Part shown: positions 8,010 to 58,110 of the stretch, piece by piece | How the letters are laid out: each line of letters starts with the position of its first letter | Position numbering within the stretch: position 1 is the stretch's first letter | NCBI GenBank assembly: GCA_018823135.1 | Contig: JAHJJF010000086.1 | Location: 1-64,000, forward strand | Reading direction: 5' to 3' | Length of the DNA stretch: 64,000 bases | Source of the DNA: Pseudomonadota bacterium | GTDB taxonomy: Bacteria > Desulfobacterota > Desulfobulbia > Desulfobulbales > CALZHT01 | The notes under the pieces: generated by a model | The model's database searches: none | Told to the model about the DNA's origin: nothing | What the model saw: only the letters and a program-made list of their open reading frames with translations | Program-made: the position numbers and the translations under genes

Positions 8010-8022
8010 GAAAATCGTTCCT

Positions 8023-20000: not shown

Positions 20001-23000
20001 ATGCAAAATGATTTTTGTCAGGACTCAAAGAAATATAATTATCTGTGTACCCAGAACCCCCACCACCCCATCGATTACACCCTAAAAGAGATAGATCTAA
20101 AGCAAAAAGGTAAGCATTTTCAGCAACCATTAACGGTTGTTGCTGAAAGGTTGTATCAATGACCCAAATATTAAAAAGATTCCCGCTTAAACCAAGATTA
20201 TAATCTCTTAGTAATATTTGATTCTCATCAAACCATTCAATAATTGTGTGAGAAGGCGATTGCACTGGAAAAATATTTTCCTGTTGGCCGTTAATATCAC
20301 TGACAACGAGGTGTGTTTCAGAAGCGTATGCAATCTTTTTGCCGTCAGGTGACCACCTGAATGATTGATATGAACCTGTCGAATTTGACCAATTCGGTAT
20401 GATTTCTACCTTTTCCGATCCATCAGGTTTACTGATTATGATTTTGTAACCTGAGGTTACAGTATCATAAATTTTATATGCCAGATAGGCACTGTCTGGA
20501 GACCAATATACACCCCTGTAACTTTCAGTATTTAACGATTCAACCAGATGTAACTCCCCTCCGTTTGTATTGACCGACCATAACTGATATTCCCATTGCG
20601 TAATAAGCTTGTTATATTTTAAAATTATAAATGCCACTTTTTTGCTATCATCAGAAATTTTAAAAAATACGTTGTCGCATTCGCTGTCATTAACATATTC
20701 ATAGTGATAACTATAGTTACTGTTATAATCATTGTACCACTCCTCTTTGGTCAACCTGACTTTTGTGGCGCCATCAATTGAATAATAAAAAAGGCCACAC
20801 AACGGAGATTTCACACCATAACGACAAGCTAATAAAGAAGAAATATTAGAATAAATAAAACCGCTCTCATCAGGCAACCACACGGCATTCTTTGGTGTAT
20901 TAGTTGACCTTTGTAGAATATAATCAGTGCCTGCAGTTGTACTCCAGAGGAGCTTGTTGTTATCAACTACGATTACCAAGCTTGAAAGAATTGAATCCTC
21001 TGAGCGTATTTGAATTTGGTACTGACCATCCTCCACTACTCTGCCAAAGTCATCCAAGCCATCCCAGCTTATAGCACCGGCAGCGACATTTTCAAACTCA
21101 CTACCACTGAAAGTTCGAACCGCCTCCCCATATTCGTTTACGATAACAATTTCTACAGTTTGAGGAGATTCAAGTCGGAAGGTAAAATCAGTTGAATCCT
21201 GAATACCGTCCCCATTTGGAGAAATATATTGTTCGGTTAGCCAGAGATTCGAATCCTGAACCCCAAAATTTCTCGATGCTGTATTGTTTTCATTATCCTG
21301 TTCCAGAATTGTGTCGCTGGGATCAACCTGGGCTGTAACTGTATGAAGGCCTGTTTTCCCAATTGTGTCGTACGTGAAAAAAACCGAACCTTGTGAGTTC
21401 CCTTCAACAAAAGCAAGGGTTTCCTCCCCTATCTGATTTCCATTTTCTGAAATCACAACAGTCACCGAAGAACTATCCTGCTCGCCTGCATTCTGCACCA
21501 AAACTTCAATTGTTAAAATATCTCCTTCTTTCGGGGCATCAGGAGAAAAAGAAATTGAACGAATTGAAAGTGTAAGGTCTGGAAGTGTCAGAATTTTTAA
21601 TGTATTAAATGCACTGTTGTCAGTTTCAGATATTTCATTGATATTACTATCAGGGTCGACAACAACTGATATGACTTTTTCTCCAGATACGGGGATATCA
21701 GTCCATACATGAGAAGCAGTCTCAGAGCCATTTATGGGAATCAAAGGTATTGTCGAGGCCCCCAGCAGTTCCCCTCCCATTTGAGGATCTCCCAAATGAA
21801 ATTGAACTTCAACATTCTCTGCTGGTGCGAATCCATTATTTTCAATTTTGGCAGATAAAGTAGTTGTCCCTTTTTCTGATGCAGGCGTTGGGTCTGCGAC
21901 TATATCCAAATAGCTTAAAGTCAAATTCGGGTCTATTGCGGAATTGACAGTGATGAGTTTATTTGACTGGTTATTGGCTTCTGAAAGTTCAGCAAAAGCA
22001 TTTTCTGGATCAATCTGAAGATTAAGAGGCATTCCTTCCCCAACTACATCGGCCTTCCAAATATATTCATGGTCAATGGTTTGTCCTGAGGGGACATCAA
22101 TATATTCTAGAACGATTTCAACTGCTCCCGAAGGTAAGTCGAGGTAATACTTGATAGGGACATTATAAGAGTCAAGAGTGCCATGATTTGAAATCAGGTT
22201 ATGGATAACTACATCTTGAAAATAATTAGCAGTCTCAGGCGTTACCGTGAGATCTGAAGCGAGAATTTCAAAATCATAGGTCGGTTCCGGATAGAGCATC
22301 CTAAGGGCAATGTTGTTGTTTTCACTTGCCTCTTTTATCAGGTTATCCGGATCAACAACCGCAAAATAGCGATGAGAATTACCATCGTTGATTGTGGTAT
22401 TAAAAACTACAGTTGCAGATGATTGGCTGATTACGGCAACAAACTGTTCCCCAAGCTTATTTTCTTCACTTATTGTGTTTTCATAGAGAATTACCTGTGC
22501 GTCCGCAACATCGGTCATCCCATTATTATGCACAGTTACGGAAAGATCTACTTGAGTCGGAAGAGAAGTTATATTTTCAGGAGAGGGAATGATATCTGAA
22601 GTACTTACTACAAGGTCAGGATCCCGCATCGCAACCCACATTGCATTGACTGCTTTTGAAGTCTGATGGGCGCTGGCATACCATGAGCCATCCTGCGATT
22701 GCCGTTCGAGAATATAATTCAAGGCCCGATCCGTGACGTCAGATGAGATACCGAATTGCTTAAGACCAATCAGGGTTGTCGCGGTGTTATAAACAGTACT
22801 CGGACTATTACCGAAACCACCGTCGATATTCTGTTTACTGTATATCCAGACGAGGCCATTTTGAATAAATCCGTCCAGCTCATAGTCCTGCTGATAACTG
22901 CTAAAGGCGGTAATGACGTTTACCGATGTAAAAATATTGCTCGTGCCATCTGCACCCCACCCTGCATCTGTATTCTGCTGACCTTTGAGATATTCTATTG

Positions 23001-45026: not shown

Positions 45027-45440
45027 TTACAGATTATTTGCTGGACGAGATAATCCCTCTGCTGGTGGTGGGGACATCCGACAGCAGATTTCTATCCTTT
45101 CTACCAGTTCATCCACCTCAATGGGTTTTAAACAATAATCATATGCCCCGAACTCTATGCCTCGGATACCTGACTGCATGGACGCGTGGCCGGACAGTAT
45201 AATCACCGGGATTTCTGGCCATTTCTGCTTTATCTCCTTGAGGAATAGCAGGCCATCTCTGTCCGGCAACATGACATCCAAGACAACCACATCCACCCCG
45301 CCAATATCGAGAAACCGGGAAGCATTAAGACAATTGCCGGCGCATTTAACCAGATAACCCCGCCTGAGAAGACTTTTCCGGGTGGCCTCCAGAAAATCTG
45401 CCTCATCATCAACCAGCAGGATGTTAATTATCTTTCTCAT
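45027..45440 (-). CDS. Stand-alone response regulator receiver protein
   Basis: ATG 45440 has GAGGAGAAAGG upstream and gives 137 residues. It is a complete receiver domain: Asp11/Asp12 (VDDE), phospho-acceptor Asp55 in VVLDVMLP, Ser83 in ILSGHA and Lys105 in CLKP. A short unstructured tail follows with no DNA-binding or enzymatic output domain. It overlaps the 3' end of the PEP-synthase-like gene by 17 bases, so the two are co-translated. It probably takes phosphate from one of the island's two histidine kinases and controls its partner by protein contact. Confidence 0.9.
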   Translation of the reverse strand: MRKIINILLVDDEADFLEATRKSLLRRGYLVKCAGNCLNASRFLDIGGVDVVVLDVMLPDRDGLLFLKEIKQKWPEIPVIILSGHASMQSGIRGIEFGAYDYCLKPIEVDELVERIEICCRMSPPPAEGLSRPANNL

Positions 45441-48009
45441 TGCCTTTCTCCTCATCATGCGCTTTATCCATAATGTTTGCGAGGTCTGCCATTATCTTCC
45501 GCTTGTAACGATCCAAGATGGCCTCCTCACCCAGGACCATATCGATCTGGCGTGTATGAATGAGCAGATACCCGAGTAATGCCAGTCGGTCTTTGAGATA
45601 TGCCGCCGGATATTTTTCAAGGCGGGCCGTAAGTGCGTCTCTTATCAAGTCGACCCGGAAACCATACAATCGGAGAATCTCAGCCAGAAGAGTAACTCGC
45701 ACCAGTCGGCGTCTTTCATCGGCTGCCCCCCCTTTGAACTGGAAACTGATATAATTCTCAGTAAGAAATTCCCCAAGATTTGCCTCGACAAGCGCAAAAT
45801 GATAGCCAAGCCGGACACTCAAATTGCAGAAATTCCTTGAAACAAGAAAATAATTCCTGCCGCCCATGCTGGCACCTACAGCCGGCTCCAGACGCGGGTC
45901 CATGGTTGACTGCAAAATAATTGACCCGAAGCCCCTCAGGTTAACAGGCGGGGGGCCTTCCCACGGGACAGCCACCATGCCGCGCCAGACAGCATGCATG
46001 GGTTCGGATTGAATATCATCAAGACTTACGTATTTACTTTCTGGTTGGACATTTTCACTGAAACCATCGTCAAGGTTGATCACCCACCACTGGAAGGGCG
46101 TCTTGACAACCAGTTGTTTTGCCGAACGCTTGTCAAATCGATATTTCATCCCGAATTGAAATATTTCCTGTACCGCTTTTTCATGACAGAAACGAGTTAT
46201 GTCATGAAGCGTCCGGCAGTATGACGGGGCGAATTGAACCGCTTTGGGATCAGTCAGATTCAGTGGGGAAATCTCCTGCAAAACTCTTTGTAAAATCTTG
46301 TAAACCGGGCTGCCAACCATGAGTTTGACTGCCGGCTGACTCCGGGCGATACGCTCAGCATCCTTTCCCCGGCAGATAACATTTTCAATAGCATCTACCG
46401 TAAGGATTTCACCATCATTATATGTGGAAAAAGCATCTTCCACTCCAAAAATAGCCGGGACTCCAAATTCACGGGCAACCGTTGCCAGATGGGCGGCCGC
46501 CTCCCCGGCAGCACTGATTATGGCCACCGCATGACTCACCAAGACCGCCCAGTCGGAATGGGGATAACGCACAAGGAGCACGGCTCCTCTGGGAAACTGC
46601 AGCAGATCGACCTGAGACTCCACCTTAAAAACCGGCCCTGAAGCAATTCCCCGGCTGACCGCTATTCCACCTGGACAGATGGCGGCATCTGTATTCTGGT
46701 CATCTCCGGCAGAAGCAAGGGCGGTAGCCTGAAAAGTTTCGGAATCGAGAGGGCGGCTCTGCAGAATGACCAGTTTCCCTTCGGAATCAAAAGACCACTC
46801 AATATCCTGAGGGCCACCAAAATGTTTTTCAAGCAGCAGCGTGGCTTGTGCCAGTTCCTGAATTTGTTCATCTGACAAAAGAAAGACGCCCTCTGTCTGC
46901 CGGTTATCCGGCGTATTCGTTACTCCAGGGCTTTTGAATACAATTGGAAATGGTTGCTGGCGATTCAAATGATAAACATCGCACGGCGCTTCACCTTCCA
47001 CAACGTTTGCCGCAGTCCCGGCAACAGCATAGATATGCATCAGATTGCTGCCGGCATTTGAATAGGAAACGCCGCTGACTGTTGCATCGATCATCATCAG
47101 GCATCCGACGCACATTACGATATCCTGATGCCTGTACCCCCGCCGCAGACGATAGACAAGGGCCTGACTTTTATACTTGCCGGCGAGTATCTCCTTGTAG
47201 GTATGGCCCAGGAAGTCGGGATGCACGTCGAGTTGCGTCCTGTATTGGCCGGCAAAGGAAGTGTTGACAAGGTCCTCGCCTGAGGCGCTTGATCGCATGG
47301 AGACAAGAATTTCCCGGCCTTGCCGCACCGCAAGCTGATAATAGGCTTGATTAATCTGACTATCGAGATCTTCAGGCATCCTGGAATTGACAATAAGATT
47401 CTGAACAGCGGCACTGACCGTGAAAAGATCTTCAAGATCGTCCTCGTTCAACTGCTTGAGACGACGGTTGATTTCATCCTGAAGATTATTCGTTGTGATG
47501 AAATGCCGGGCTGCTTCAGCGGTAATCACAAAGCCGTCTGGTGTGTTCAACCCGAGATGCTTGCGGATTTCACCGAGATTTGCCATCTTTTCGCCGACGG
47601 CATCAACGGAATGCCGGTCAATCTCCGACAGGGGGAGAACAAAGGGCTGAATCAGATCGGAAAATATGGGCCTGCTGGCAATGGTGTTTTCGATTCGTAA
47701 TGATATTTCCTTGAAACGTGGAATAATACTCTCATATCTTCCGTCAGCAAGTTCCACGAGATTTATGACCATTTTATAGACATTTGCCGTTAGAGCGGTA
47801 CAATTCCCGCGGACAAAAGCCATGCCGAAAGAGCGTCCGGAATTAAGGGTCTGCTCCATCTCAGCCATTAATTTCAGGGCATTATTATTGGCGGTAAGCA
47901 GGGATCGAAATACCTTGAAATGTTGTTGAAAGGTCGCCTGGAGATCGACAGGATCTAATCCCGGTCCTCCGCGAAAGAGCTGTATGATATATTTTACAAA
48001 GCTATGCAT
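45424..48009 (-). CDS. PEP-synthase-like protein with ATP-grasp and mobile domains but no PEP barrel
   Basis: This is an 861-residue protein. Residues of about 1-130 are helical and unfamiliar. About 135-430 match the pyruvate/phosphate dikinase ATP-binding domain (GEKMANLGEIRKHLG, VSMRSSASGEDLVNTSFAGQYRT, QDIEWSFDSEGKLVILQSRPL). About 470-560 match the swivelling phosphohistidine domain, with His507 in GEAAAHLATVAREFGVPAIFG, although the usual T-S before the His is A-A. The C-terminal 300 residues do not look like the PEP/pyruvate barrel (NLSVRLGYHFALVEANLGE, FKGGAADERRR). Phosphotransfer from ATP to His507 is plausible but the acceptor is unknown. A weak ribosome site precedes ATG 48009, and a receiver gene overlaps the end. 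Confidence 0.82.
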   Translation of the reverse strand: MHSFVKYIIQLFRGGPGLDPVDLQATFQQHFKVFRSLLTANNNALKLMAEMEQTLNSGRSFGMAFVRGNCTALTANVYKMVINLVELADGRYESIIPRFKEISLRIENTIASRPIFSDLIQPFVLPLSEIDRHSVDAVGEKMANLGEIRKHLGLNTPDGFVITAEAARHFITTNNLQDEINRRLKQLNEDDLEDLFTVSAAVQNLIVNSRMPEDLDSQINQAYYQLAVRQGREILVSMRSSASGEDLVNTSFAGQYRTQLDVHPDFLGHTYKEILAGKYKSQALVYRLRRGYRHQDIVMCVGCLMMIDATVSGVSYSNAGSNLMHIYAVAGTAANVVEGEAPCDVYHLNRQQPFPIVFKSPGVTNTPDNRQTEGVFLLSDEQIQELAQATLLLEKHFGGPQDIEWSFDSEGKLVILQSRPLDSETFQATALASAGDDQNTDAAICPGGIAVSRGIASGPVFKVESQVDLLQFPRGAVLLVRYPHSDWAVLVSHAVAIISAAGEAAAHLATVAREFGVPAIFGVEDAFSTYNDGEILTVDAIENVICRGKDAERIARSQPAVKLMVGSPVYKILQRVLQEISPLNLTDPKAVQFAPSYCRTLHDITRFCHEKAVQEIFQFGMKYRFDKRSAKQLVVKTPFQWWVINLDDGFSENVQPESKYVSLDDIQSEPMHAVWRGMVAVPWEGPPPVNLRGFGSIILQSTMDPRLEPAVGASMGGRNYFLVSRNFCNLSVRLGYHFALVEANLGEFLTENYISFQFKGGAADERRRLVRVTLLAEILRLYGFRVDLIRDALTARLEKYPAAYLKDRLALLGYLLIHTRQIDMVLGEEAILDRYKRKIMADLANIMDKAHDEEKGNEKDN

Positions 48010-48107
48010 GGCTTTGGTACTGTTCTCATTCGGTGCGAATATGGAGTATCAGACACATCATTTGATGACTTTTAATCCCTCCTGAAAAAAATTGCATGTT
48101 TTCAGAC

Positions 48108-48157
48108 AAAAAAAGCGCCACAAGGTGGAAGAGGAGTATCTGAGCCCTGTGGCGCTT
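48108..48157 (-). terminator. Rho-independent terminator after the two-helix membrane protein gene
   Basis: On the minus strand the arm AAGCGCCACA pairs perfectly with TGTGGCGCTT across a 25-base loop, followed by TTTTTTG. It separates the sigma-54-driven genes from the PEP-synthase-like gene, so readthrough or a second promoter is needed for the latter. Confidence 0.8.
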
Positions 48158-48233
48158 AATTGAAACTTGGCTGAATGAGACGCGGCAAGGGAGAGCAGTC
48201 TTCTATAACTGCAAAACCGCTTTCAACCAGGCA

Positions 48234-48920
48234 TCAATGTTCCAACTTCAATCCCCAGCCCTCGAACATGAAAAGAATGGAAAAACCGAACCATAATGTA
48301 TAAATGACATACCCCACCAGGGAAACAACCACAATTGCCGCTTTATCCTTAATGCTCTCGGCCGGAATGCCGTAGTAATTATAGGCCGGCTCCACTCCCC
48401 TGGTCTGCGACTTGTTAATAATCTTGGCTTCTTTGAACATCTTCTGTTTATTGAAGTCCTTTTCCGCAGCCTTGAGGGCATACCACCAGTCATACATAAC
48501 CTGCTTTGCTTCTAAACCGTATTTTGCGGCAAATGCCTGCCCGTCATTAGCAAACGCCATATCGGCATCATTGAGAATATTTTCAAGCATCAGGCCAAGA
48601 CCACCTTCCACTTTGACATTTACGTCATCAACCGCAACCCGAGCATCGCCTGCCTTAAAAAGCTTGGCATACCGTTTGGCCTGCTCGGGGCTGCCGGCTT
48701 TTATGTTCAAGGTGACCTGCTGGCCCTTGTACTGTTGCGCCTCTTTCACCACGCCCGGAATGTAATAAGCTGATTTCTTTGAAATGGTATTATACAGATT
48801 GTCCATATAATTCAGGATGTTCTGACCGGCAAAGAGTGGCGACATGCCGATGGCGAATACTATCCAGAAACCGATAAACAGCAGCAGGCCGCCGCCGAAT
48901 TCTTTCTTGTTGGCAATCAT
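48234..48920 (-). CDS. Two-helix membrane protein of unknown function, partner of TauE/SafE
   Basis: This 228-residue protein has an N-terminal transmembrane helix (about 11-31, LLLFIGFWIVFAIGMSPLF) and a C-terminal one (about 196-220, IVVVSLVGYVIYTLWFGFSILF). Between them is a soluble, probably periplasmic region of about 160 residues with YNTISKKSAYYIPGVVKEAQQYKG and the pattern DVNVKVEGGLGLMLENI. I do not recognise the family. Its ATG overlaps the TauE/SafE stop (ATGA), so the two are translationally coupled. It is likely a subunit or periplasmic binding partner of the exporter. A strong terminator follows. Confidence 0.8.
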   Translation of the reverse strand: MIANKKEFGGGLLLFIGFWIVFAIGMSPLFAGQNILNYMDNLYNTISKKSAYYIPGVVKEAQQYKGQQVTLNIKAGSPEQAKRYAKLFKAGDARVAVDDVNVKVEGGLGLMLENILNDADMAFANDGQAFAAKYGLEAKQVMYDWWYALKAAEKDFNKQKMFKEAKIINKSQTRGVEPAYNYYGIPAESIKDKAAIVVVSLVGYVIYTLWFGFSILFMFEGWGLKLEH

Positions 48921-50206
48921 GCGTGCACCCCCTCACCCTTCAGTGTTTTTATATTCATCAGAAAAGTACCAATTACCCAGATCGCAAAAATTGAGATGAC
49001 CACGAAAAAGAGATAGACGCCAATCTGTTCCAGAATTTTTCCGGTATTGTCGGATATGGTAATGACATCCATTTTGCCAAGCTTGGCGGGCAGGGCGAAG
49101 ACCCGATTGACAAACCCGGCAAGTACCGCCGTGGCGTAAAAACCCCGGATAGTGGTGCCGGGAACAACCTTGGTCACCAGCGAACCGATCTGAATTCCGA
49201 GCAGTGAGCCAAGCAGCATGCCGATGGCCAGGGTATAAAAGATGAACCCATAGATGGCGTACTGACCAAGACCTGCATACCCGGCGGTAAAGATAATCTG
49301 GAAGATGTCGGTGCCAACCGTGGTTGCCGAGGAAACACCAAGGCCGTACACGAAAATCGGGAAGGTGAGAAAGCCGCCGCCGACACCCATGATGGCTGCG
49401 GCGAGGCCTACAATGGCACCGCTGATCACCAGAAAAATTGCCGAGATCTTGCGGCCGCCCGGCACCACGCCCTGGTCGAAATGCAGCATGGGCGGAATGT
49501 TGACGGACTGAATTTTCTGGGCCAGGCCGGTCATTGATTCACCGCCTGCATCAACATCGCCGGTTTTTGCAGCCTTTGCGGCAGACTTTCTTGCCGACAG
49601 GCAATCAGCCAGGGAATAAAACCCCAGAAAACCCAGCATGATCACATAGACTGTGGTAATAAAGGCATCGCTTAAAACAGGGTTCAATTCATAGAGAGTG
49701 CGATTGATATAGCCGCCCAGAGTGGCCCCGCCGATGGAGCCGATCAGAAAGGTCCCTGCCAGCGATACAGAGATGTTGCCGAGTTTACGATGCAGGACAC
49801 TGCCCATAATCGCCTTGGCAAAAATATGAAACAGGTCGGTGCCCACCGCCAGAATTCCTTTTACGCCTGCGCTCATCAGGGCCGGGGCAATTATAAAACC
49901 ACCGCCCGCTCCGATACAGCCGGTGATGAGCCCTGCACAAAGGCCGACACCGATGGAAGCAAAGAAGATGGTATTCGTGTAAAATGCCGGGCTATAGGCC
50001 TTTTTACCGCCCAGAACATCCGGCAGGGCGATGGCGATTTCTTCCGCAAATGCGATGCCACCCAAAACAATCGGGATCAGCAGCAGCCCTAAAATCATCA
50101 GACGTCGGCGACTCTGCAATATCCGCCGGGACGTGTCCAGGTCCCAGGCAGCATAGGCCTGCGCCCCAGACATCATCATCTCATATAACTGTTTTCCCAT
50201 CTTCAT
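48917..50206 (-). CDS. TauE/SafE-family membrane transporter (sulfite/organosulfonate exporter type)
   Basis: The protein has 429 residues, with GGGAGG 10 bases before ATG 50206. It is a polytopic membrane protein with the two inverted TauE/SafE halves. Each half carries the glycine-rich signature: GLCAGLITGCIGAGGGFIIAPAL in the first and GLAAAIMGVGGGFLTFPIFVYG in the second, each followed by VGTDLFHI or VGTDIFQI. An extended N-terminus (about 50 residues) and a loop of about 60 residues between the halves (AKAAKTGDVDAGGES) make it longer than typical members (about 250-300). The family moves sulfite, sulfonates and similar anions. Here it is coupled to a novel membrane protein and lies inside a two-component island. 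Confidence 0.9.
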   Translation of the reverse strand: MKMGKQLYEMMMSGAQAYAAWDLDTSRRILQSRRRLMILGLLLIPIVLGGIAFAEEIAIALPDVLGGKKAYSPAFYTNTIFFASIGVGLCAGLITGCIGAGGGFIIAPALMSAGVKGILAVGTDLFHIFAKAIMGSVLHRKLGNISVSLAGTFLIGSIGGATLGGYINRTLYELNPVLSDAFITTVYVIMLGFLGFYSLADCLSARKSAAKAAKTGDVDAGGESMTGLAQKIQSVNIPPMLHFDQGVVPGGRKISAIFLVISGAIVGLAAAIMGVGGGFLTFPIFVYGLGVSSATTVGTDIFQIIFTAGYAGLGQYAIYGFIFYTLAIGMLLGSLLGIQIGSLVTKVVPGTTIRGFYATAVLAGFVNRVFALPAKLGKMDVITISDNTGKILEQIGVYLFFVVISIFAIWVIGTFLMNIKTLKGEGVHA

Positions 50207-50265
50207 CTTTTGTTTTCCTCCCTCAAGTGTTCAAGTTTATTTTTCATGTCGCTTTTTTTTATTTT

Positions 50266-50291
50266 CCGGGACAATGCTCGTTTTTGTCCGG
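50266..50291 (-). repeat. Intra-operon hairpin between receiver and TauE/SafE genes
   Basis: CCGGACAA pairs with TTGTCCCGG (one bulged G). It starts directly after the stop of the receiver at 50294 and is followed by an A-rich run, not T. It is therefore more likely an mRNA-processing or stability hairpin than a terminator. Confidence 0.5.
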
Positions 50292-50293
50292 TG

Positions 50294-50707
50294 TTAAACT
50301 GTATCGTTGCAATTCTGCTGCAGGAGGATCTTGCCGTAAGGCTCACACTTGAGCAGGAGACAGAGCTTTTCCAGCAAGGTCTCAAGCTCCACCGGCTTTA
50401 TGAGGTATTCCACTGCACCCTGAAGCATGCTTTCCTTACCATCACTGGCTGAGGCATGTCCGGTCAGCATGACTACAATGGTTTCAGGACTGACACACCG
50501 TATAGTCCGCAATACATGGACGCCATTGGTATCCGGCAGCAGCATATCCAGCACCACCGCATCAAAGTGGCCTGTGGAAATTTTCTTGATTGCATCGGCG
50601 CCATTGTATGCTGATTCGCAGTTGACACCGCGCATCAGCAGCCTTTTGGCCAGACAGTCAACAAAATCCCTTTCATCGTCCACGAGCAGAATTCGTTTAT
50701 TCCTCAT
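50294..50707 (-). CDS. Stand-alone response regulator receiver protein
   Basis: The 137-residue receiver is complete: Asp10/Asp11 (VDDE), phospho-acceptor Asp54 in AVVLDMLLP, Thr82 in MLTGHA and Lys104 in LIKP. A tail of about 30 residues has no recognised domain. Its start overlaps the stop of the upstream histidine kinase (ATGA at 50704-50707), so kinase and receiver are made together and are a likely cognate pair. A hairpin and an 87-base gap separate it from TauE/SafE. Confidence 0.9.
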   Translation of the reverse strand: MRNKRILLVDDERDFVDCLAKRLLMRGVNCESAYNGADAIKKISTGHFDAVVLDMLLPDTNGVHVLRTIRCVSPETIVVMLTGHASASDGKESMLQGAVEYLIKPVELETLLEKLCLLLKCEPYGKILLQQNCNDTV

Positions 50708-52386
50708 AATTTTTCCTCATGGGTCTGAACTTCGACCTTATTATTCAAACTCAAAGAAACCGTGAAGAGACACCCTCCCTGCTCCCGGTTAACCACTTCA
50801 AGATCACCATTCATCTTCTGCATGATATTGCGTGAAATTAATAACCCGAGTCCGGTCCCCTTGCCTTTCTCCTTTGTGGTGTAAAATGGCTGAAAAATTT
50901 TATCTGTATCGTGTTCGGGTATCCCTGGACCCGTATCAGCAAACTGCACATGAATCCTGCCATCCACCTGCAAAGTACTTACGGTAATGACTCCTTCGCT
51001 GCCGATGGCATCAATAGCGTTATTTAGAATGTTGAGAAACACCTGCTGCAACTGTGTTGCCTCAGTTCTTACCACCGGCAGACCCTCCGCATATTCTCGC
51101 TTGATAATAATCCGGTTGCTGCACGCCTCTTTTTCCAGAAGATTTATCGTTTCTTCGACGATCTTGTTAATATCCGTTTCAAACCATTCCCCATCATCTG
51201 AACCGGCAAACCCAAGCAGGCGTTTCGTAATGCCCCCTGCACGCCTGACCTGAGTTCGAATTTTTTCAATAGCTCGAAGAGCTTCCTGATGATCGTAAGC
51301 TTGACCTTCCGTTTCCTGCTCCAGCAGCTCGTTTATCCACCCAGCCTGTGCACTAATGACTTGCAGCGGATTATTTATCTCATGAGCGACACTGGCGGCC
51401 AGACGACCGATCAGGGCCATCTTTTCAACCTCTCTGACCTTATCCGTCAGGTTCATCCTCTGTTCTTCCGCGCGTTCAATTTTATTTACCAGGGGGTTTA
51501 TCACTAACCTGGCGACAATAAGGATCAGGAGCGCGGTTCCCACGATAACGGTGAGCCCGATTTTTCTGGCCTGATAAAAATCTTTGAGTGAAGAAGGGAT
51601 ATCAGTTTTCAGGACCAGCAGCCAGTTACCCCTGTTTAATGGCGCCACAGCATAAAGATAATTATTATAGGAGGTTACCTTAACACCTCTACTGGCGATT
51701 TCGTGCAGCATGCGGACGTGACCCGGATCAAAAATCGTCTGCCCGAGACGGCTCGTTGTCTGCATCTCGCCTTGACGGCTAATTATAAAGGCGTCACCAT
51801 TTGGTCCGACATTGGCACTGGCAACCAGGGCATTAAACATTTCAGAATTGATCGTTGCCCTTAACAGCCATGATCTGTCTTGTGATGCGACTGCAACAAC
51901 AAGATGGGGTACACCGCGGTAACCGGTGAATACATCACTCACATATCTGCCTTGTTTCATGACCTCGACAAACCAAGGGGAATCCGCATAATTTTTTCCC
52001 ACCAGCCTTTCCGTAAAAGGCCCAACATAGGCTAGATGGCGCCCAGCCCCGTCAATAACACCAAGATCAGTCATCACATTGTTTCGGTTAACCGCAAAAA
52101 AAACCTTCTCCAGCCTGTCTACCCGGCTGAGCTCTTCCTGCATAAAGAGTTGCAAAAGTCCGCCAAGCAGATCTTCCTGATTGGCAAGGAAGAGATCGAT
52201 CAGCTCTTTTCTGCTTTCTGAAAAACTTGAGAGTTCGTTTTCTGTCTTGGTCAACCAGGAATCTTGAAAAAGTTTTGAGGAGTTCCAGTTGATAAAAATC
52301 AGCGGTAGAATGGCAAGCAGGATAATCACCAGGCTAAAAATCCTTTTCTGGCCGGAATAGTAATCCGCCCGCGGTTTCTGCTTCAT
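50704..52386 (-). CDS. Sensor histidine kinase with periplasmic dCache-like domain
   Basis: I start at ATG 52386 (560 residues), which has GGGGAAG upstream and a basic stretch before helix 1 (about 14-33, FSLVIILLAILPLIFINW). A periplasmic sensor of about 260 residues follows (VFFAVNRNNVMTDLGVIDGAGRHLAYVGPF, then KNYADSPWFVEVMKQGRYVSDVFTGYRG), as in dCache domains that bind small ligands. After a second helix (LTVIVGTALLILIVARLVI) comes the kinase core: VAHEINNPLQ (His335), NILNNAIDAIG, DTGPGIP and GTGLGLLISR. All ATP-binding boxes are intact. The kinase is paralogous to the one at 55976 on the other arm of the island. Confidence 0.9.
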   Translation of the reverse strand: MKQKPRADYYSGQKRIFSLVIILLAILPLIFINWNSSKLFQDSWLTKTENELSSFSESRKELIDLFLANQEDLLGGLLQLFMQEELSRVDRLEKVFFAVNRNNVMTDLGVIDGAGRHLAYVGPFTERLVGKNYADSPWFVEVMKQGRYVSDVFTGYRGVPHLVVAVASQDRSWLLRATINSEMFNALVASANVGPNGDAFIISRQGEMQTTSRLGQTIFDPGHVRMLHEIASRGVKVTSYNNYLYAVAPLNRGNWLLVLKTDIPSSLKDFYQARKIGLTVIVGTALLILIVARLVINPLVNKIERAEEQRMNLTDKVREVEKMALIGRLAASVAHEINNPLQVISAQAGWINELLEQETEGQAYDHQEALRAIEKIRTQVRRAGGITKRLLGFAGSDDGEWFETDINKIVEETINLLEKEACSNRIIIKREYAEGLPVVRTEATQLQQVFLNILNNAIDAIGSEGVITVSTLQVDGRIHVQFADTGPGIPEHDTDKIFQPFYTTKEKGKGTGLGLLISRNIMQKMNGDLEVVNREQGGCLFTVSLSLNNKVEVQTHEEKL

Positions 52387-52489
52387 TACTTCCCCGGGGA
52401 TGGTGGCGAAATACATTTTCACGGCAGGCAGGGCTCCCTGCGTGCCGCCCTGCCGATTACCATCACCTGATGCCACCGACTAACTCTTT

Positions 52490-52933
52490 TCATCTTGCTA
52501 TTTTCCGTGCCGTCTCAAATTCACCTGCCTCGGCAAAGGCAACCGCGGCCATCGTATTGTTTTTATTCATTTCTCTGTGCGCTGATCTGATTCTGTCCAC
52601 CAGCATCTCGATATCAACAGGCTTTTTCAGGTAATCAAAAGCCCCCAGGCGTCGCGCCTCGCCCTCTTCAAGATCATTGCCGTGGCCGGTAAGAATTATG
52701 ACCTGAATCCTCGGGTAGTGCTCTTTCACCCTGCGCAGAACTTCCATTCCGTCCAACCCCGGCATCTTTAGGTCAAGAACGATGATGTCAGGAAGATTCT
52801 GCCCCACATATCGCAAGGCATCCTTGCCGTTCAAGGCCGTTTTACTTTTAAGGTCTCTCAAGTCCAGTAGCTCAGAAATGGAAACGATAAAATCTTCCTC
52901 GTCATCAACCAGTAATATTTTAATGTCCTCCAT
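52490..52933 (-). CDS. Response regulator receiver protein with C-terminal FAEAGE tail
   Basis: The 147-residue product has a strong GAGGAGAGG ribosome site. The receiver is intact: Asp10/Asp11, Asp54 in IIVLDLKMP, Thr82 in ILTGHG, Lys104 in LKKP. The last 25 residues read MNKNNTMAAVAFAEAGEFETARKIAR (in two parts here: MNKNNTMAAVAFAEAG and EFETARKIAR). The FAEAGE motif (133-138) recurs in the two small proteins encoded just upstream. The tail resembles one TPR helix pair, A-x8-G-x4-A, and may be a shared docking surface. No DNA-binding domain is present. The gene ends 104 bases before the kinase start. Confidence 0.9.
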   Translation of the reverse strand: MEDIKILLVDDEEDFIVSISELLDLRDLKSKTALNGKDALRYVGQNLPDIIVLDLKMPGLDGMEVLRRVKEHYPRIQVIILTGHGNDLEEGEARRLGAFDYLKKPVDIEMLVDRIRSAHREMNKNNTMAAVAFAEAGEFETARKIAR

Positions 52934-52989
52934 AAAGCCTCTCCTCTATAATGTTTTTGCAACTTATGGTTAAATCATACGATCGATGG

Positions 52990-53106
52990 TTATTCATGGT
53001 CTGTTGTTTCATCTTCATCCAAGAAATCCAGGGCGCTTTCAAATTCCCCGGCTTGAGCAAAGGTTGCAGCAGCCATTGTCTGTCTGATTTTTTCACCTAG
53101 CGACAT
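52990..53106 (-). CDS. 38-residue small protein carrying the FAEAGE-type motif
   Basis: This short frame starts at ATG 53106 inside the end of the degenerate receiver gene and overlaps it by ten bases. AAAGG lies eight bases upstream, with GAGGA abutting the start. It encodes MSLGEKIRQTMAAATFAQAG followed by EFESALDFLDEDETTDHE and then TAA. Residues 16-21 (FAQAGE) and the surrounding pattern match the tail of the receiver just downstream and the 103-residue protein just upstream. The match in an otherwise unconstrained position, the overlap and the ribosome site argue that it is real. The acidic tail (DEDETTDHE) may mediate contact. Function is unknown. Confidence 0.7.
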   Translation of the reverse strand: MSLGEKIRQTMAAATFAQAGEFESALDFLDEDETTDHE

Positions 53107-53501
53107 TCCTCGCCGCCTTTTGACCGATTTTTTTCTCCGACTACAGGCTTCCAGAATTTTTTTTTTAATGTGTCGGTGTCGAACGGGACGGTGAGTTCGT
53201 CAGAAGCACCGGCCTGCATACCATCCATGGATGCATTAACCCGGTCGCTGGTGTTCAGCAGAATGACCTCCACATATTTTGATTTCTGCCGCAACCGGTG
53301 CAGAAATCTCACTGCCTTTTCCGGGGTGCACCGGATATCAAGGAGGACGACATCAATATTGTCCAACAAGAGATAATTGGGATCTTCCCAGCTATCTTGG
53401 GCCTCTTCATGCCATATTGCATAAATTTTCCAGGCTTCAATGGTTCTGCAGAGCATCTGTGCAAATTCCGCATCCAAGGTTTTGATATACACCGTGCTCA
53501 T
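53097..53501 (-). CDS. Degenerate receiver-like protein
   Basis: The product has 134 residues with GGAG eight bases before the ATG. The fold is that of a receiver: VVLLDIRCTPEK places Asp55 at the phospho-acceptor position, and VEVILLNTSD then GASDELTVPFD follow the order of strands 4 and 5. Three key positions have changed. The paired N-terminal acids are absent (only Asp10), the Thr/Ser position is Asn83, and the invariant Lys before Pro is Val105. The protein may therefore not accept phosphate and could act as a constitutive or decoy binding partner. The stop overlaps the start of the 38-residue gene. Confidence 0.8.
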   Translation of the reverse strand: MSTVYIKTLDAEFAQMLCRTIEAWKIYAIWHEEAQDSWEDPNYLLLDNIDVVLLDIRCTPEKAVRFLHRLRQKSKYVEVILLNTSDRVNASMDGMQAGASDELTVPFDTDTLKKKFWKPVVGEKNRSKGGEECR

Positions 53502-53550
53502 GAAGTGGACTCCGATCCGCCTTTCCGAGGGAATACCCTGCGGAGCTCTT

Positions 53551-53862
53551 TCATTCCCCTGGTTCCCATGCTAAGGCCCCATAGGACATGCGAATGCCCT
53601 CCAGGCCTAATGTCTTAATAAAATCCATGATGTATTGATTTTCATGATGTTCATCTTCCATCAGCCGAACGGCTTCGGCATGCAGTCCTTCCTCTGCAAA
53701 GGCAACTGCCATAAACACTTTGAAGAAGTGCGGAATTTTTCGACTTATACCCCGAACCACAGGAATCATGGCCCTTGCGGTATCCCATTCCCCTGCTTCA
53801 GCAAAGGTGATGGCATTCATCCAACTCTGATGGGTCTGATCCGTATTCATCTTCTTGTTCAT
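53551..53862 (-). CDS. 103-residue protein with two FAEAGE-type motifs; first gene after the sigma-54 promoter
   Basis: ATG 53862 has an ideal GGGAGG site and sits 64 bases from the sigma-54 promoter. Two copies of the motif are visible: AITFAEAGEWDTAR (FAEAGE at 20-25) and AVAFAEEGLHAEAV (FAEEG at 55-59), separated by a basic helix (RGISRKIPHFFKVF). The periodicity matches TPR-like helical hairpins. It has no signal peptide, helix long enough to span a membrane, or known catalytic motif. I do not recognise it. As the first product of the induced transcript it may be a small adaptor for the receivers that follow. A 49-base gap separates it from the degenerate receiver. Confidence 0.8.
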   Translation of the reverse strand: MNKKMNTDQTHQSWMNAITFAEAGEWDTARAMIPVVRGISRKIPHFFKVFMAVAFAEEGLHAEAVRLMEDEHHENQYIMDFIKTLGLEGIRMSYGALAWEPGE

Positions 53863-54217
53863 GGCGTAACCTCCCTTGCAAAATAATTGATCGTCATACA
53901 ACGTTTTGCGCTTGACTTAATAAAAAGCAATGTTCGTGCCATGATCGAAAATAGCTGCAAATTCAAACAGTTACCCGAAACAACACCCCGTCACCCGACT
54001 CAAAATAAACGAGACAGAGAACAAATCGACACACAACGATACAGTTTAATGATATCTCGCAGCACCGAAAACAAGGCTCTAATTCCACGCAAACCACCAA
54101 TAACAAAGAAACTTATTGACATTCAAGGTGCAAAAAAGTACAAAACAACTCAAGACATATCGATACACAATCTGTCTAATAAAACAAAAACAGCCGGATA
54201 GTCGGCATCCACCAACC
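53863..54217. other. Divergent control region of the regulatory island
   Basis: The gap contains the leftward sigma-54 promoter (53926-53941). The rightward gene must be expressed from a promoter further right (53942-54217), which I could not assign. Enhancer-like sites for the activator are expected 80-200 bases upstream of the promoter, that is within about 54020-54140, but I found no clear palindrome by eye. Confidence 0.6.
53926..53941 (-). promoter_or_regulatory. Consensus sigma-54 (-24/-12) promoter
   Basis: The minus strand reads TGGCACGAACATTGCT, an exact match to TGGCACG-N4-TTGC with the GG and GC at the right spacing. The start site would be about 12 bases left of the GC, near 53916. 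The 103-residue gene follows 64 bases downstream with a strong ribosome site. The sigma-54 activator gene diverges from the other side of the same control region. Confidence 0.93.
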
Positions 54218-55609
54218 ATGGTTCTGCACATGAAAAAACAGAATCCCCCCCTTGATGAGCATATCAGCCTTCTTGAGGTCATCAATTCCTTGCCGCACGG
54301 AGTGGCTGTGCTTGGCCAAGATGGCACTATAGCCAAGATGAATCACTATCTGGAGGCATGCACAGGCTATGCGACAGAAAAGGTCTGTGGCACATCGGTT
54401 GACCAGGTAATTCGCACCAACCTTGCCATTCACAGCAAATTTTTTCTGCAGACAGCTTCCCGCGAAGAACAGATCATAATGGAAGGGGATACTATCAATG
54501 CGAACCGGAAAAGAGTGCCGGTGCGCCTGACCCTTTCACCGCTCTTCGGTGAAACCCATGAGGTGAAGTGCTTTCTGCTACTGCTTGAAGATTTGTCATC
54601 CCAGCGTGCCATTCAACAAAATATCCATGATGACGGAAAAAAAATGGGAATCATCGGCCACAGTCCGAAAATGCAGGAAATTTTTGAACTGCTGCCAATC
54701 CTCACACACACCGACACCACATTATTGATAACCGGCGAGACCGGCACCGGAAAAGACTTCCTTGCAGAGACTATCCATCAGCTCTCCAGTCGATCAAAAG
54801 CACCCTTCATCAAGGTCAATTGCGGCGCCCTCCCGGAGGCCCTGCTTGAATCGGAACTGTTCGGTTACGTTCGCGGCGCTTTTACCGGGGCGCACGCCGA
54901 CAAGCCAGGCATGTTCAGGCTTTCTCAGGGAGGCACCATTTTCCTGACAGAGATTGGCGATCTGCCGGTAGCCCTCCAGACCAAGCTCCTCACGGTGCTT
55001 GACGATAAGGAATTTTATCCATTGGGCAGCTCAAAAAAAGTAAAGGTCGATGTTCGCCTGATTACCGCCACTCACCACGACCTCCGTCGACTGGTTCAGC
55101 AGGGTAAATTCCGGGAAGATCTTTACTATCGTCTCAACGTTCTGCGCACCCACCTGCCGCCGCTCCGCGAGCGAGGCGACGATATCAAGCTGCTGCTGGA
55201 ACATTTTCTCCATAAATTTTCACAAACCCTGGAGAAGAATATCAGGGGGTTCAATCAGGACGCAGAAACATGTCTTCTGGATTACCACTTTCCCGGCAAT
55301 GTCAGAGAGTTGAGTAACATTGCGGAATACGCCGCAAATATATGCCAGGGTGAACTGATCAAGTTTTCACACCTGCCCGCATATCTGCATACAGCCATAG
55401 CGGATATTCCCGAACCGGCGGACAGCACGAAAACTACCGGCCAGGGCAATGAACGCGCTGCAACAATCTCTAACTGGTCTCATTTTGAAAAGAAAAAGAT
55501 TTTCGACAGCCTGGTAAACACCGATGGCAACCGTACCCAGACTGCCAAACAATTAGGATGGGGCCGAAGCAAGCTCTGGCGGAAGATGAAGCTCTACGGT
55601 CTTGAATGA
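54218..55609 (+). CDS. Sigma-54-dependent transcriptional activator (PAS, AAA+, Fis-type HTH)
   Basis: I start at ATG 54218 (463 residues); ATG 54230 is also possible, and neither has a clear ribosome site. An N-terminal PAS domain (VINSLPHGVAVLGQDGTIAK) replaces the usual receiver. The AAA+ domain has Walker A GETGTGKD (about 173), the sigma-54-contacting GAFTGA (220-225) and the Walker B region GGTIFLTEIGDLP. Arg fingers and DYHFPGNVRELSN follow, then a Fis-type helix-turn-helix (NRTQTAKQLGWGRSKLWRKM). It is the obvious activator for the divergent sigma-54 promoter. Its signal is probably a small molecule or redox state sensed by PAS, or contact with an island receiver. Confidence 0.93.
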   Translation: MVLHMKKQNPPLDEHISLLEVINSLPHGVAVLGQDGTIAKMNHYLEACTGYATEKVCGTSVDQVIRTNLAIHSKFFLQTASREEQIIMEGDTINANRKRVPVRLTLSPLFGETHEVKCFLLLLEDLSSQRAIQQNIHDDGKKMGIIGHSPKMQEIFELLPILTHTDTTLLITGETGTGKDFLAETIHQLSSRSKAPFIKVNCGALPEALLESELFGYVRGAFTGAHADKPGMFRLSQGGTIFLTEIGDLPVALQTKLLTVLDDKEFYPLGSSKKVKVDVRLITATHHDLRRLVQQGKFREDLYYRLNVLRTHLPPLRERGDDIKLLLEHFLHKFSQTLEKNIRGFNQDAETCLLDYHFPGNVRELSNIAEYAANICQGELIKFSHLPAYLHTAIADIPEPADSTKTTGQGNERAATISNWSHFEKKKIFDSLVNTDGNRTQTAKQLGWGRSKLWRKMKLYGLE

Positions 55610-55619
55610 GGACAGCTCA

Positions 55620-55979
55620 GTGAAAATCCTGCTCACCCTTCTTGAGGATTACATCGCTCCACGTTTTGATCTCACAACCAAGGTGATCATCACGGAAGCA
55701 CAACAAGGGGTCCCCCCCACATCGAGGACCATCCTGCTGCCGGGTCCGTCAAGCGACGAACTCTGCAGCCTCATCCTTAAAGAAAACATTACCCTGGTTG
55801 TGTGCGGCGGCATTGAAGAAAGACATTACCAATACCTCTGCTGGAAGAAGATAGAAATTATCGACCGGGTCATCGGATCAGCTGATTGTGTCCTCCATTC
55901 ATTAATCAACGGGGATCTTCAGCCAGGAAAAGTTGTCCGGGAAATTCAACCCTCGACCCCATCCAAGGAAAAATCATGA
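55620..55979 (+). CDS. NifX/NifB-type dinitrogenase cofactor-binding-like protein
   Basis: GTG 55620 is preferred: GAGGA lies about 6 bases upstream and the protein then begins MKILLTLLEDYIAPRFDLTTKV, as expected for the fold. The 119-residue product matches the NifX-like family (PF02579 type): PRFDL, a central LLPGPSSDELCSLI, then VVCGGIEERHYQYLCWKKIEIIDRVIG. In nitrogen fixation such proteins carry FeMo-cofactor precursors, but stand-alone members occur in many anaerobes. Cys residues are in CS, VCGG and LCW. It is within the activator-kinase-receiver transcript, which suggests a sensing role, perhaps for a metal-sulfur species. The downstream kinase overlaps its stop by ATGA. Confidence 0.8.
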   Translation: MKILLTLLEDYIAPRFDLTTKVIITEAQQGVPPTSRTILLPGPSSDELCSLILKENITLVVCGGIEERHYQYLCWKKIEIIDRVIGSADCVLHSLINGDLQPGKVVREIQPSTPSKEKS

Positions 55980-57712
55980 AATCACCTTGGCTCCGCCTCA
56001 TTCGCTTCACCCAGAACCAGTTCGTCTTCTGCATCAATGATTCGAACCTTTCTGCCCAGCAGCGCTATCTGTACCTCAGAAGAGGCCTGCTTTTGATCCT
56101 GTGCATGGTCGCGATGATTCCATTGATCATCACCGCCGGACTCAGCTACAATCAATACCGGCAGGTGGTAAAAGAGGAAGTGGAAAGCAATGCCCGCTGG
56201 AGCACGGTGAGCACCAAACAGAATATTGAGACTTTTTTGGGCAAACTGCGGTCATCAATATCCATCATCGCAGATGCATATTCATTCATGGATCTGACGC
56301 AGCAGAATACTCTTGACCTGGTTTTTGAAAAACTCAAACACGAAAATCCAGGGGTGGTTGATTTAAGTGTAATCGGACCAGACGGTGTTCAGCAGACCTA
56401 CTCCGGCCCTTTCAACCTGACGGGCAAAAATTACGCCGAAAGCCTCTGGTATAGCAAAACACTGGCCCAGCAAAGTTACATCAGCGAAGTCTTCCTGGGC
56501 TTTCGCAATCTGCCGCATTTTGTTGTTGCAGTGAGCAGAAAGATCTCAACCGACAACAGCCACTGGATTTTGCGGGCGAGCATTGACACGGAAACAATTG
56601 ACCGTTTTCTGCTGTCAATCCATTCCGATATAGTAGAGGACGTTTTTCTTGTGAACAGCGCAGGCCTGCTGCAAAGCTCCTCGAGTTTTTACGGAAAGGT
56701 CGGCGCACAAAGTCCTTTAACTAAAATTCCACGCAAAAACAGGTTGAATCTTGTCGAGGAATACCGCAATTCCAAACCGATAATCCGAACCTACAGCCCC
56801 ATAAAGGACACCCCCTGGACTCTTGTCCTGGAACATACCCAATATGCAGAGAAAAAACCCTGGCGCCAATTCAAACGCAAACTGCTGATCATTCTCTGTG
56901 TCTGTTCATTGTTAATCGTCATCGCTGCTTACCGCATAGCAGGATTTGTTGCCGCATCGATCCGTAGTGCGGATGAAGCGCGAGAAGCCCTACTTGCCCA
57001 GACCGAACATAATGACAAACTTGCTTCCATTGGCAGGCTGGCTGCAGGTGTTGCCCACGAAATAAACAACCCTCTGGCCATTATCCATGCCAAGGCCCAG
57101 CTATTAAAGGATCTACTGGCATTAACAAAGGATTTTGAATATCGAGAAAAATTCTTAGCACAACTAGACTCACAGCAGAAGGCCGTTGCCAGAAGCCGAG
57201 ACATAACCCACCGGCTCCTGGGCTTTGCCCGCAGAATGGAAAGCAAGCTTGAACCGGTGTGGATCAACATGGTAATCGAGGAAGTTTTAAGCTTTCTTGA
57301 AAGGGAGGCTCAGTACAAGAGCGTCCGGATCGATCTTGATCTGCAACAGGATCTGCCGGCCATCACCAGTGACCAGGGGCAGCTCCAGCAGATTCTCTTC
57401 AACATCATCAACAATGCCATTGATTCTGTGGACAAGAACAGCAGCATTGAGATCAGAACAAAGAAAGTGGAGCCGGCTGCCATCCGGATTGAAATATCAG
57501 ACCACGGCCCCGGCATGTCTCCCGAGATCCAGAAAAAAATATTTGAACCATTTTTCACGACAAAGAATGAAAAAGATAAACAGGGGACCGGGCTCGGGCT
57601 GTTTATCACATATGGCCTGGTGAAAAAGCTCCATGGAGACATCCAGGTCCAAAGCGTTGTGGGAATCGGCACAACCTTCATTCTAAGTTTTCCAGAACAG
57701 AGGCAAGATTAG
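55976..57712 (+). CDS. Sensor histidine kinase with periplasmic dCache-like domain (paralogue of 50704)
   Basis: ATG 55976 lies behind AAGGAA and overlaps the NifX-like stop. The product has 578 residues. Helix 1 is at about 40-62 (LLLILCMVAMIPLIITAGL). The periplasmic domain (LDLVFEKLKHENPGVVDLSVIGPDGVQQTYSGPF, then KNYAESLWYSKTLAQQSYISEVFLGFRNLPHFVVAV) mirrors the other kinase in order and wording, so the two are homologues. Helix 2 is near 305-330 (LLIILCVCSLLIVIAAYRI). The core has VAHEINNPLA (His361), NIINNAIDSVD, DHGPGMS and GTGLGLFIT, all intact. Its partner is probably the receiver at 57712, with which it shares one base. Confidence 0.92.
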   Translation: MKSPWLRLIRFTQNQFVFCINDSNLSAQQRYLYLRRGLLLILCMVAMIPLIITAGLSYNQYRQVVKEEVESNARWSTVSTKQNIETFLGKLRSSISIIADAYSFMDLTQQNTLDLVFEKLKHENPGVVDLSVIGPDGVQQTYSGPFNLTGKNYAESLWYSKTLAQQSYISEVFLGFRNLPHFVVAVSRKISTDNSHWILRASIDTETIDRFLLSIHSDIVEDVFLVNSAGLLQSSSSFYGKVGAQSPLTKIPRKNRLNLVEEYRNSKPIIRTYSPIKDTPWTLVLEHTQYAEKKPWRQFKRKLLIILCVCSLLIVIAAYRIAGFVAASIRSADEAREALLAQTEHNDKLASIGRLAAGVAHEINNPLAIIHAKAQLLKDLLALTKDFEYREKFLAQLDSQQKAVARSRDITHRLLGFARRMESKLEPVWINMVIEEVLSFLEREAQYKSVRIDLDLQQDLPAITSDQGQLQQILFNIINNAIDSVDKNSSIEIRTKKVEPAAIRIEISDHGPGMSPEIQKKIFEPFFTTKNEKDKQGTGLGLFITYGLVKKLHGDIQVQSVVGIGTTFILSFPEQRQD

Positions 57713-58110
57713 TGAAAAAAACAATTTCTAAAAACAAAGTATTGATTATCGATGATGAAATCGAGTTTGCCGAGACCTGTGCCGAATGCCTTGCCTTACG
57801 CGACTTTGAGGTCATGGCCTTTGGTGATGCCAACGAAGCCATGAACTTCATACGATCGGACTGGAAACCGGATGTCGTGCTTTTGGATCTTAAAATGCCG
57901 GAGATTGATGGTCTTGAGGTCCTGGATATGATAAAAAATTACGATCCACGCATTGAGGTTATCCTGATCACTGCCCACGGTTCAACCGAACACGGGATTT
58001 CCGGAATGCAGAGGGGTTTATTCGACTTTCTCATGAAACCAGTGGAACTTGATGAGTTGGTAGAAAAAATCCATCAAGCCATTAACTTGAGACTGAGTGT
58101 TCAAGATTAG
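57712..58110 (+). CDS. Stand-alone response regulator receiver protein
   Basis: GTG 57712 overlaps the kinase stop TAG by one base, giving 132 residues. The receiver is intact: Asp14/Asp15 (IDDE), Asp59 in VVLLDLKMP, Thr87 in LITAHG and Lys109 in LMKP. There is no output domain. Close spacing with the kinase implies cognate signalling. It could reach the sigma-54 activator in trans, because that activator has a PAS domain instead of a receiver. No clear terminator was seen before the convergent YchJ-like gene. Confidence 0.9.
   Translation: MKKTISKNKVLIIDDEIEFAETCAECLALRDFEVMAFGDANEAMNFIRSDWKPDVVLLDLKMPEIDGLEVLDMIKNYDPRIEVILITAHGSTEHGISGMQRGLFDFLMKPVELDELVEKIHQAINLRLSVQD

Follow-up and report, generated by a model that had tools for sequence, protein, structure and literature searches.

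A sigma-54-controlled TauE/SafE gene island in a Desulfobulbales bacterium, with a regulatory cassette paralogous to that of a DASS symporter

The island and its proposed function

The 64,000 nt stretch of DNA discussed here (the window; contig JAHJJF010000086.1 of assembly GCA_018823135.1, from a bacterium of the order Desulfobulbales that carries a sulfite reductase) includes at 45027-58110 an island in which a transporter of the TauE/SafE (TSUP) family is grouped with a sigma-54 activator, two histidine kinases and a set of stand-alone receivers. From sequence comparisons we think it fairly probable that the island serves to transport and sense a sulfur oxyanion, sulfate being the likeliest, under sigma-54 and two-component control. 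The anion can be narrowed in this way because the same regulatory cassette controls a CBS-DASS pair, in the same genome and at most of the other loci retrieved, and because dsrA accompanies MP228, the membrane partner of the transporter. The paralogy with DASS is also the reason why we favour import of sulfate over export.

Dissimilatory sulfate reduction begins with the uptake of sulfate. D. vulgaris has three SulP transporters and none is essential (PMC5840216), so other sulfate carriers must exist; a conserved, dsr-linked TSUP module whose control switch is a copy of that of the sodium-sulfate symporter is a concrete candidate. Names and limits are also provided for two unassigned proteins, MP228, with a predicted fold that has no match, and PEPSL (for phosphoenolpyruvate (PEP) synthase-like), a dikinase without the usual acceptor domain. 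The features of the island are as follows.

45027-45458, minus strand: RR1, stand-alone receiver at the 3' end of the TauE operon (PF00072 7e-26), with a 35-nt overlap with PEPSL
45424-48009, minus strand: PEPSL, 861 aa (Pfam PPDK_N and PEP-utilizers mobile domain; alignments; AlphaFold2 (AF2) model)
48234-48920, minus strand: MP228, two-helix membrane protein (transmembrane helices; AF2 model)
48917-50206, minus strand: TauE/SafE (TSUP) transporter (PF01925 2e-34), with an ATGA overlap with MP228
50294-50707, minus strand: RR2, stand-alone receiver (PF00072 4e-24), with an ATGA overlap with HK1
50704-52476, minus strand: HK1, dCache histidine kinase (HATPase_c 1e-26, HisKA 4e-7, dCache_1 3e-10)
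52490-52933, minus strand: RR3, receiver with a FAEAGE tail at its C-terminus (PF00072 2e-27)
53097-53501, minus strand: degenerate receiver, conserved Lys lost (PF00072 2e-7)
53551-53862, minus strand: small TPR-like protein, opening the leftward operon (TPR_4, weak at 0.003)
53926-53941, minus strand: sigma-54 -24/-12 promoter, TGGCACGAACATTGCT (consensus scan)
54218-55609, plus strand: PAS-AAA+(GAFTGA)-Fis sigma-54 activator (Sigma54_activat 8e-68, HTH_8 1e-8, PAS_9 5e-7)
55602-55979, plus strand: NifX/orange-protein-like 125-aa protein, the cassette marker (PF02579, weak; 12-row alignment)
55976-57712, plus strand: HK2, dCache histidine kinase (dCache_1 3e-18, HATPase_c 1e-26)
57712-58110, plus strand: RR4, stand-alone receiver (PF00072 3e-28)

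In the mechanism that we propose, the two dCache kinases would sense the periplasm and phosphorylate the stand-alone receivers, and the PAS-containing activator would open the -24/-12 promoter of the leftward operon, giving TauE, MP228 and PEPSL. PEPSL, driven by ATP, would charge its swivel histidine and hand the phosphate to an acceptor by way of its new C-terminal domain, and this phosphotransfer could plausibly let energy state gate the transporter or the receivers. Of all these steps, we are least certain of the role of PEPSL. The regulatory cassette is an ancient paralogue of the one that this genome uses to control its CBS-DASS sodium-sulfate symporter. The sequences themselves show the gene content, promoter, paralogy, recurrence and the company of dsrA; the ligand, the substrate, the direction of transport and the acceptor of PEPSL are our interpretation.

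A paralogous cassette at a DASS gene

In the same genome (L179, on C106 of G000) there is a paralogous cassette around the best DASS gene (PF00939 4e-40). Activator, NifX-like gene, dCache kinase and receiver come first. Past a sigma-54 site (TGGCATAGTAGTTGCA) lie the TPR gene, the degenerate receiver, an RR3-type and a further receiver, CBS and DASS, and after DASS there are genes for a protein of 398 aa and an ion transporter of CitMHS type. Identities between the C106 and window proteins are 59% for the RR3-type receiver, 54% for the activator, 48% for the RR4-type receiver, 46% for the HK2-type kinase, 45% for the NifX-like protein, 42% for the TPR protein and 41% for the degenerate receiver. 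In the window the cassette genes themselves are present, with TauE, MP228 and PEPSL standing in the place of the CBS-DASS effector.

The NifX-like protein was found in 82 of 193 genomes. DASS lies beside the cassette in 15 of 20 further loci retrieved away from the TauE islands, usually together with CBS and often with an antiporter-like gene. In a maximum likelihood tree of 39 activators 16 that are TauE-linked fall on one side and all of the DASS-linked ones on the other (support 98/98), with 3 changes of label observed as against 13 in shuffles. The two exceptions are L037 and L058, in which the activators fall among those that are DASS-linked, and L058 holds both systems together. The cassette was therefore duplicated long ago, each copy staying with its own effector.

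Occurrence in other genomes

MP228 was found in 74 of the 193 genomes of the class and 97 of the 395 genomes of the phylum that were searched. Neighbourhoods of 20 kb were retrieved around it, and at 50 of the 53 loci analysed for adjacency it adjoins TauE, the pair usually being followed by PEPSL and a receiver and preceded by a receiver and a dCache kinase. The architecture is near-complete in L041, L045, L046, L047, L049 and L051, from six different genomes. PEPSL is present in 92 of the 97 MP228 genomes, as against 139 of the 395 overall, and is sometimes unlinked (G266). A preliminary description of the island, made from the sequence alone, had proposed that it is a recurring module, the contrary outcome being that the genes would not co-occur outside this genome. 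The opposite is seen: the three effectors recur together, MP228 and PEPSL co-occur genome-wide, and the promoter discussed below recurs far above chance. Among the best 80 of 424 relatives, the named genomes with the module are Desulfobulbaceae, bins labelled Nitrospirae, and Betaproteobacteria labelled Thiobacillus, Sulfuritalea and Rhodocyclaceae. Carriers that can be cultured include Desulfurivibrio sp. AMeS2 and Desulfobulbus alkaliphilus DSM 24258.

The gene dsrA is present at E<=1e-100 in 92 of the 97 MP228 genomes, while 188 of the 395 genomes have dsrA over the curated cut-off; the hypergeometric P of about 1e-29 ignores phylogeny and so is inflated by relatedness. Four of the five MP228 genomes that have no dsrA at this threshold are only 62-80% complete, and the fifth is G478.

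There is some variation in the regulatory genes of the relatives. In L041, L046, L069, L082 and others a stand-alone Fis-type helix-turn-helix (HTH) protein of about 100 aa is encoded between HK1 and RR3, and no such gene was found at this position in the window. In many relatives without the TPR, degenerate receiver and RR3 genes (L055, at 4441-5037, and 26 other loci) a protein of about 200 aa, with HTH and receiver-like parts, heads the TauE operon.

Substrate and direction of transport

Several observations count against a sulfur-oxyanion module. G478 is 100% complete and has MP228 but no full dsrA, and the co-occurrence of dsrA with MP228 is partly phylogeny. L148-L151 retain TauE-MP228 without local receivers or PEPSL. 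DASS proteins carry dicarboxylates as well as sulfate, and the DASS protein of this genome weakly matches structures of both kinds. The name TauE refers to export, and leaves the direction of transport open.

Taking that name at face value, the module would be a sulfite/sulfate exporter that detoxifies dissimilatory sulfur intermediates or, in hosts that oxidise sulfide, carries the end product out of the cell, and we regard this as unlikely. The TauE/SafE annotation, the restriction of the module to dsr genomes, and its presence in Desulfurivibrio (L084) and in the bins labelled Thiobacillus and Sulfuritalea would all fit with export, but the effector of the paralogous cassette is a DASS symporter, a type that normally imports, and in two sulfate reducers the sole putative sulfate transporters belong to a conserved TSUP clade (PMC5840216).

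With regard to the substrate, a strong DASS match is present at 12 MP228 loci, with about one or fewer expected for this sample size by a rough estimate that assumes one convincing DASS gene per genome, the number found in that of the window. SulP genes lie beside the betaproteobacterial copies L107, L112, L121 and L135, the last two also having DASS alongside; no SulP gene was found in the genome of the window. This company of DASS, SulP and a Na+/H+-antiporter-like protein could be read as Na+-coupled uptake of inorganic carbon or dicarboxylates. A protein encoded beside DASS in this genome has a weak match to the LCIB carbonic anhydrases (2e-4, below the cut-off), dicarboxylate carriers are among the top structure matches of DASS, and BicA belongs to SulP. 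However the SulP protein of L135 is far closer to plant sulfate transporter 4.1 (285 bits) than to the chain of 6ki1 (84 bits), which we take to be the bicarbonate transporter BicA, the LCIB-like gene was seen beside DASS in this genome only, and dsrA is in nearly all of the MP228 genomes. A bicarbonate or carboxylate module is thus improbable, and a sulfur oxyanion is the better choice of substrate.

Organisation of the island and its promoter

The preliminary description had 14 genes, but the open reading frame (ORF) list, with Pfam, gives 13, nine leftward (in order along the coordinates RR1, PEPSL, MP228, TauE, RR2, HK1, RR3, the degenerate receiver and the TPR-like protein) and four rightward (the activator, the NifX-like protein, HK2 and RR4). 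Three likely starts also differ from those given there: ATG at 53862 for the TPR-like protein, with the ORF open to TTG at 53901; ATG at 54218 for the activator, with the ORF open to TTG at 54116; and ATG at 55976 for HK2, in an ATGA overlap with the preceding stop. It was correct that genes overlap, in 6 of the 11 same-strand neighbour pairs; PEPSL and MP228 are 224 nt apart, RR3 and the degenerate receiver 163 nt, and TauE and RR2 87 nt.

The two kinases have the same periplasmic architecture, as had been noted: both are dCache_1, HisKA and HATPase_c by Pfam (dCache_1 of HK1, at 3e-10, being below the Pfam cut-off), and the sensor regions, each flanked by two transmembrane helices, are 31% identical (E 1e-28). 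Equally, there are four intact receivers (PF00072 4e-24 to 3e-28) and one divergent (2e-7), and Pfam finds no DNA-binding domain on any receiver of the island. The degenerate receiver reads ELTVPF in place of KP, and the conserved Lys is gone. A receiver follows PEPSL in most loci compared, and the TPR-like protein is the conserved first gene in the full cassettes of relatives. The match of the NifX-like protein to PF02579 is weak in the window copy and as good as 2e-6 in relatives. The C-terminal tail of RR3 (52490-52933), AFAEAGEFETAR, matches TFAEAGEWDTAR of the TPR-like protein (53551-53862), and this common tail suggests shared binding.

The activator has the AAA+ domain with GAFTGA and the Fis-type HTH of a sigma-54 enhancer-binding protein and, as first described, is divergent from a consensus promoter. 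Between 43901 and 58800 the one complete match to TGGCAY-N5-TTGCW is TGGCACGAACATTGCT, at 53941-53926 on the minus strand, which points towards the leftward operon of nine genes. Relatives have the exact consensus upstream of the first gene of the operon at 10 of 93 loci, where those loci themselves would lead one to expect 0.6, and a relaxed form at 33 of the 93 (4.9 expected), so that the -24/-12 site is conserved, as it should be for a sigma-54-dependent operon. A scan for direct and inverted repeats found one 24-nt imperfect repeat in the intergenic region and no candidate activator site common to the window and the DASS paralogue. We claim no activator binding site, because no repeat is shared with the paralogue.

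TauE, MP228 and PEPSL

TauE is a TSUP protein by PF01925 (119.7 bits, cut-off 32.6) and is 63-84% identical across the phylum, with MP228 at 29-84%. The two helices of MP228 span residues 12-30 and 195-213 and enclose a domain of about 165 aa that is by inference periplasmic. It has no Pfam match over the cut-off and no NCBIfam match, and sequence searches of the PDB with TauE and MP228 gave no matches. The AF2 model of MP228 has a pLDDT of 93.1, and a fold search of the PDB with it gave no match at E<=0.001 and none below E 0.1. As this search was empty we claim no homology, and MP228 is a new family with a confidently predicted fold.

In the case of PEPSL there is a helical N-terminus of no assigned family (1-120), a dikinase ATP-grasp domain (136-425; PPDK_N 3e-69, 234 bits), a phosphohistidine swivel domain (472-540; PEP-utilizers mobile domain PF00391, 1e-13) and a C-terminal domain (about 560-861). 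The ATP-grasp residues K141, R239, E404, Q417 and R419 are invariant in 44 sequences, as are H507 of the swivel and H602, D603, R606, H609 and E610 of the C-terminal domain in the PEPSL alignment. The AF2 model (pLDDT 83.5) matches dikinases in a structure search, and the alignment with PEP synthases in a PDB profile search ends at about residue 570. The earlier term PEP-synthase-like thus holds for the first two thirds only: residues 562-861 match no Pfam family even at E 5, PEP-utilizers_C included, whereas the true PEP synthase of this genome matches PEP-utilizers_C at 2e-55. PEPSL scores 279 bits with NCBIfam PEP_synth, for which the cut-off is 740. The ATP-grasp and swivel domains are shared with PEP synthase and rifampin phosphotransferase (2ols, 5hv1), but PEPSL has an unrelated C-terminal domain, novel as judged from these searches, in place of the PEP-utilizers_C acceptor domain. 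A plain PEP synthase was rejected, as the PEP-binding domain is absent. Given the invariant ATP-grasp residues and swivel histidine and the unmatched C-terminus, PEPSL is probably an active phosphotransferase and not a PEP synthase. In L044 (G139), which has the closest relative of MP228, PEPSL is apparently split into two ORFs.

It is conceivable, but we would not put much weight on it, that PEPSL, as a dikinase whose acceptor domain is new, links ATP to the transport or the sensing of anions, phosphorylating for instance the transported sulfur anion, MP228/TauE or the receivers, with MP228 a transporter subunit of new fold. If true, this would be a previously unknown way to energise or gate sulfate flux. 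One could also suppose that the transporter is secondary to a phosphorelay, made up of PEPSL and the receivers, by which carbon and energy metabolism are set. In favour of this, a kinase gene and a receiver gene often share an operon with PEPSL (L101, L104, L109, L129), 47 genomes have PEPSL without MP228, a receiver-PPDK_N fusion is encoded further along the same contig, and DVU2956 of D. vulgaris affects biofilm and H2S (reviewed in PMC8586430). However the invariant core is TauE-MP228, while PEPSL and receivers vary, and we give such an energy or electron-donor signalling island little chance. The fusion (L031:6873-9875, about 7 kb beyond the end of the window) is a 1001-aa protein of receiver domains and a PPDK_N ATP-grasp, and is another link of receivers to dikinase-like proteins.

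Relation to published systems

The island had been proposed to be a largely undescribed anion-response module. The anion is now narrowed, but related systems have been published (PMC4641369, PMC5840216, PMC11887813). Kazakov et al. 2015 (PMC4641369) described sigma-54 TSUP operons in D. vulgaris, in which DVU2956, likewise a one-component sigma-54 activator, is divergent from the sigma-54 promoter of a transmembrane transport operon, DVU2957-DVU2964, and binds upstream of DVU2957 in electrophoretic mobility shift assays. DVU2956 has no PAS domain, whereas the window activator has one. The TSUP gene of that operon is DVU2958 (PMC5840216), and it is in the highly conserved TSUP clade B of Marietou et al. 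2018 (PMC5840216), present in 25 of 44 sulfate reducers and suggested to be a sulfate transporter. We infer from its high conservation that the window TauE belongs to this clade, for which no operon partner was described, in contrast to the MP228 and PEPSL partners here.

The DASS cluster of Desulfosarcina variabilis (PMC11887813, 2025) likewise has Cache-domain kinases, receivers and CBS around DASS, and a common effector, "e.g. sulfate", was proposed for cache-kinase and CBS control of DASS sulfate uptake. It has WalR-type response regulators, where the cassette here combines a sigma-54 activator and a NifX-like protein with a TSUP effector. In DVU0539-DVU0545 (PMC10102598) a two-component system likewise acts through sigma-54 on a putative sulfate exporter, which comes with a small one-helix membrane protein, but the transporter is of the PSE family, universal stress proteins are present and the phenotype is on molybdate. 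In the open-access literature we found no paper describing MP228, PEPSL or the TauE-MP228-PEPSL set, and none that links sigma-54 TSUP operons, the TSUP clade and DASS control.

Other features of the window

Just downstream of the island, at 41754-44489, is a gene for a secreted-looking 911-aa protein with a HELGH metalloprotease-like motif and a VWA domain, reminiscent of the animal CLCA proteins. The window also has two giant leftward ORFs, at 8023-24507 (5494 aa) and 1641-8072 (2143 aa).

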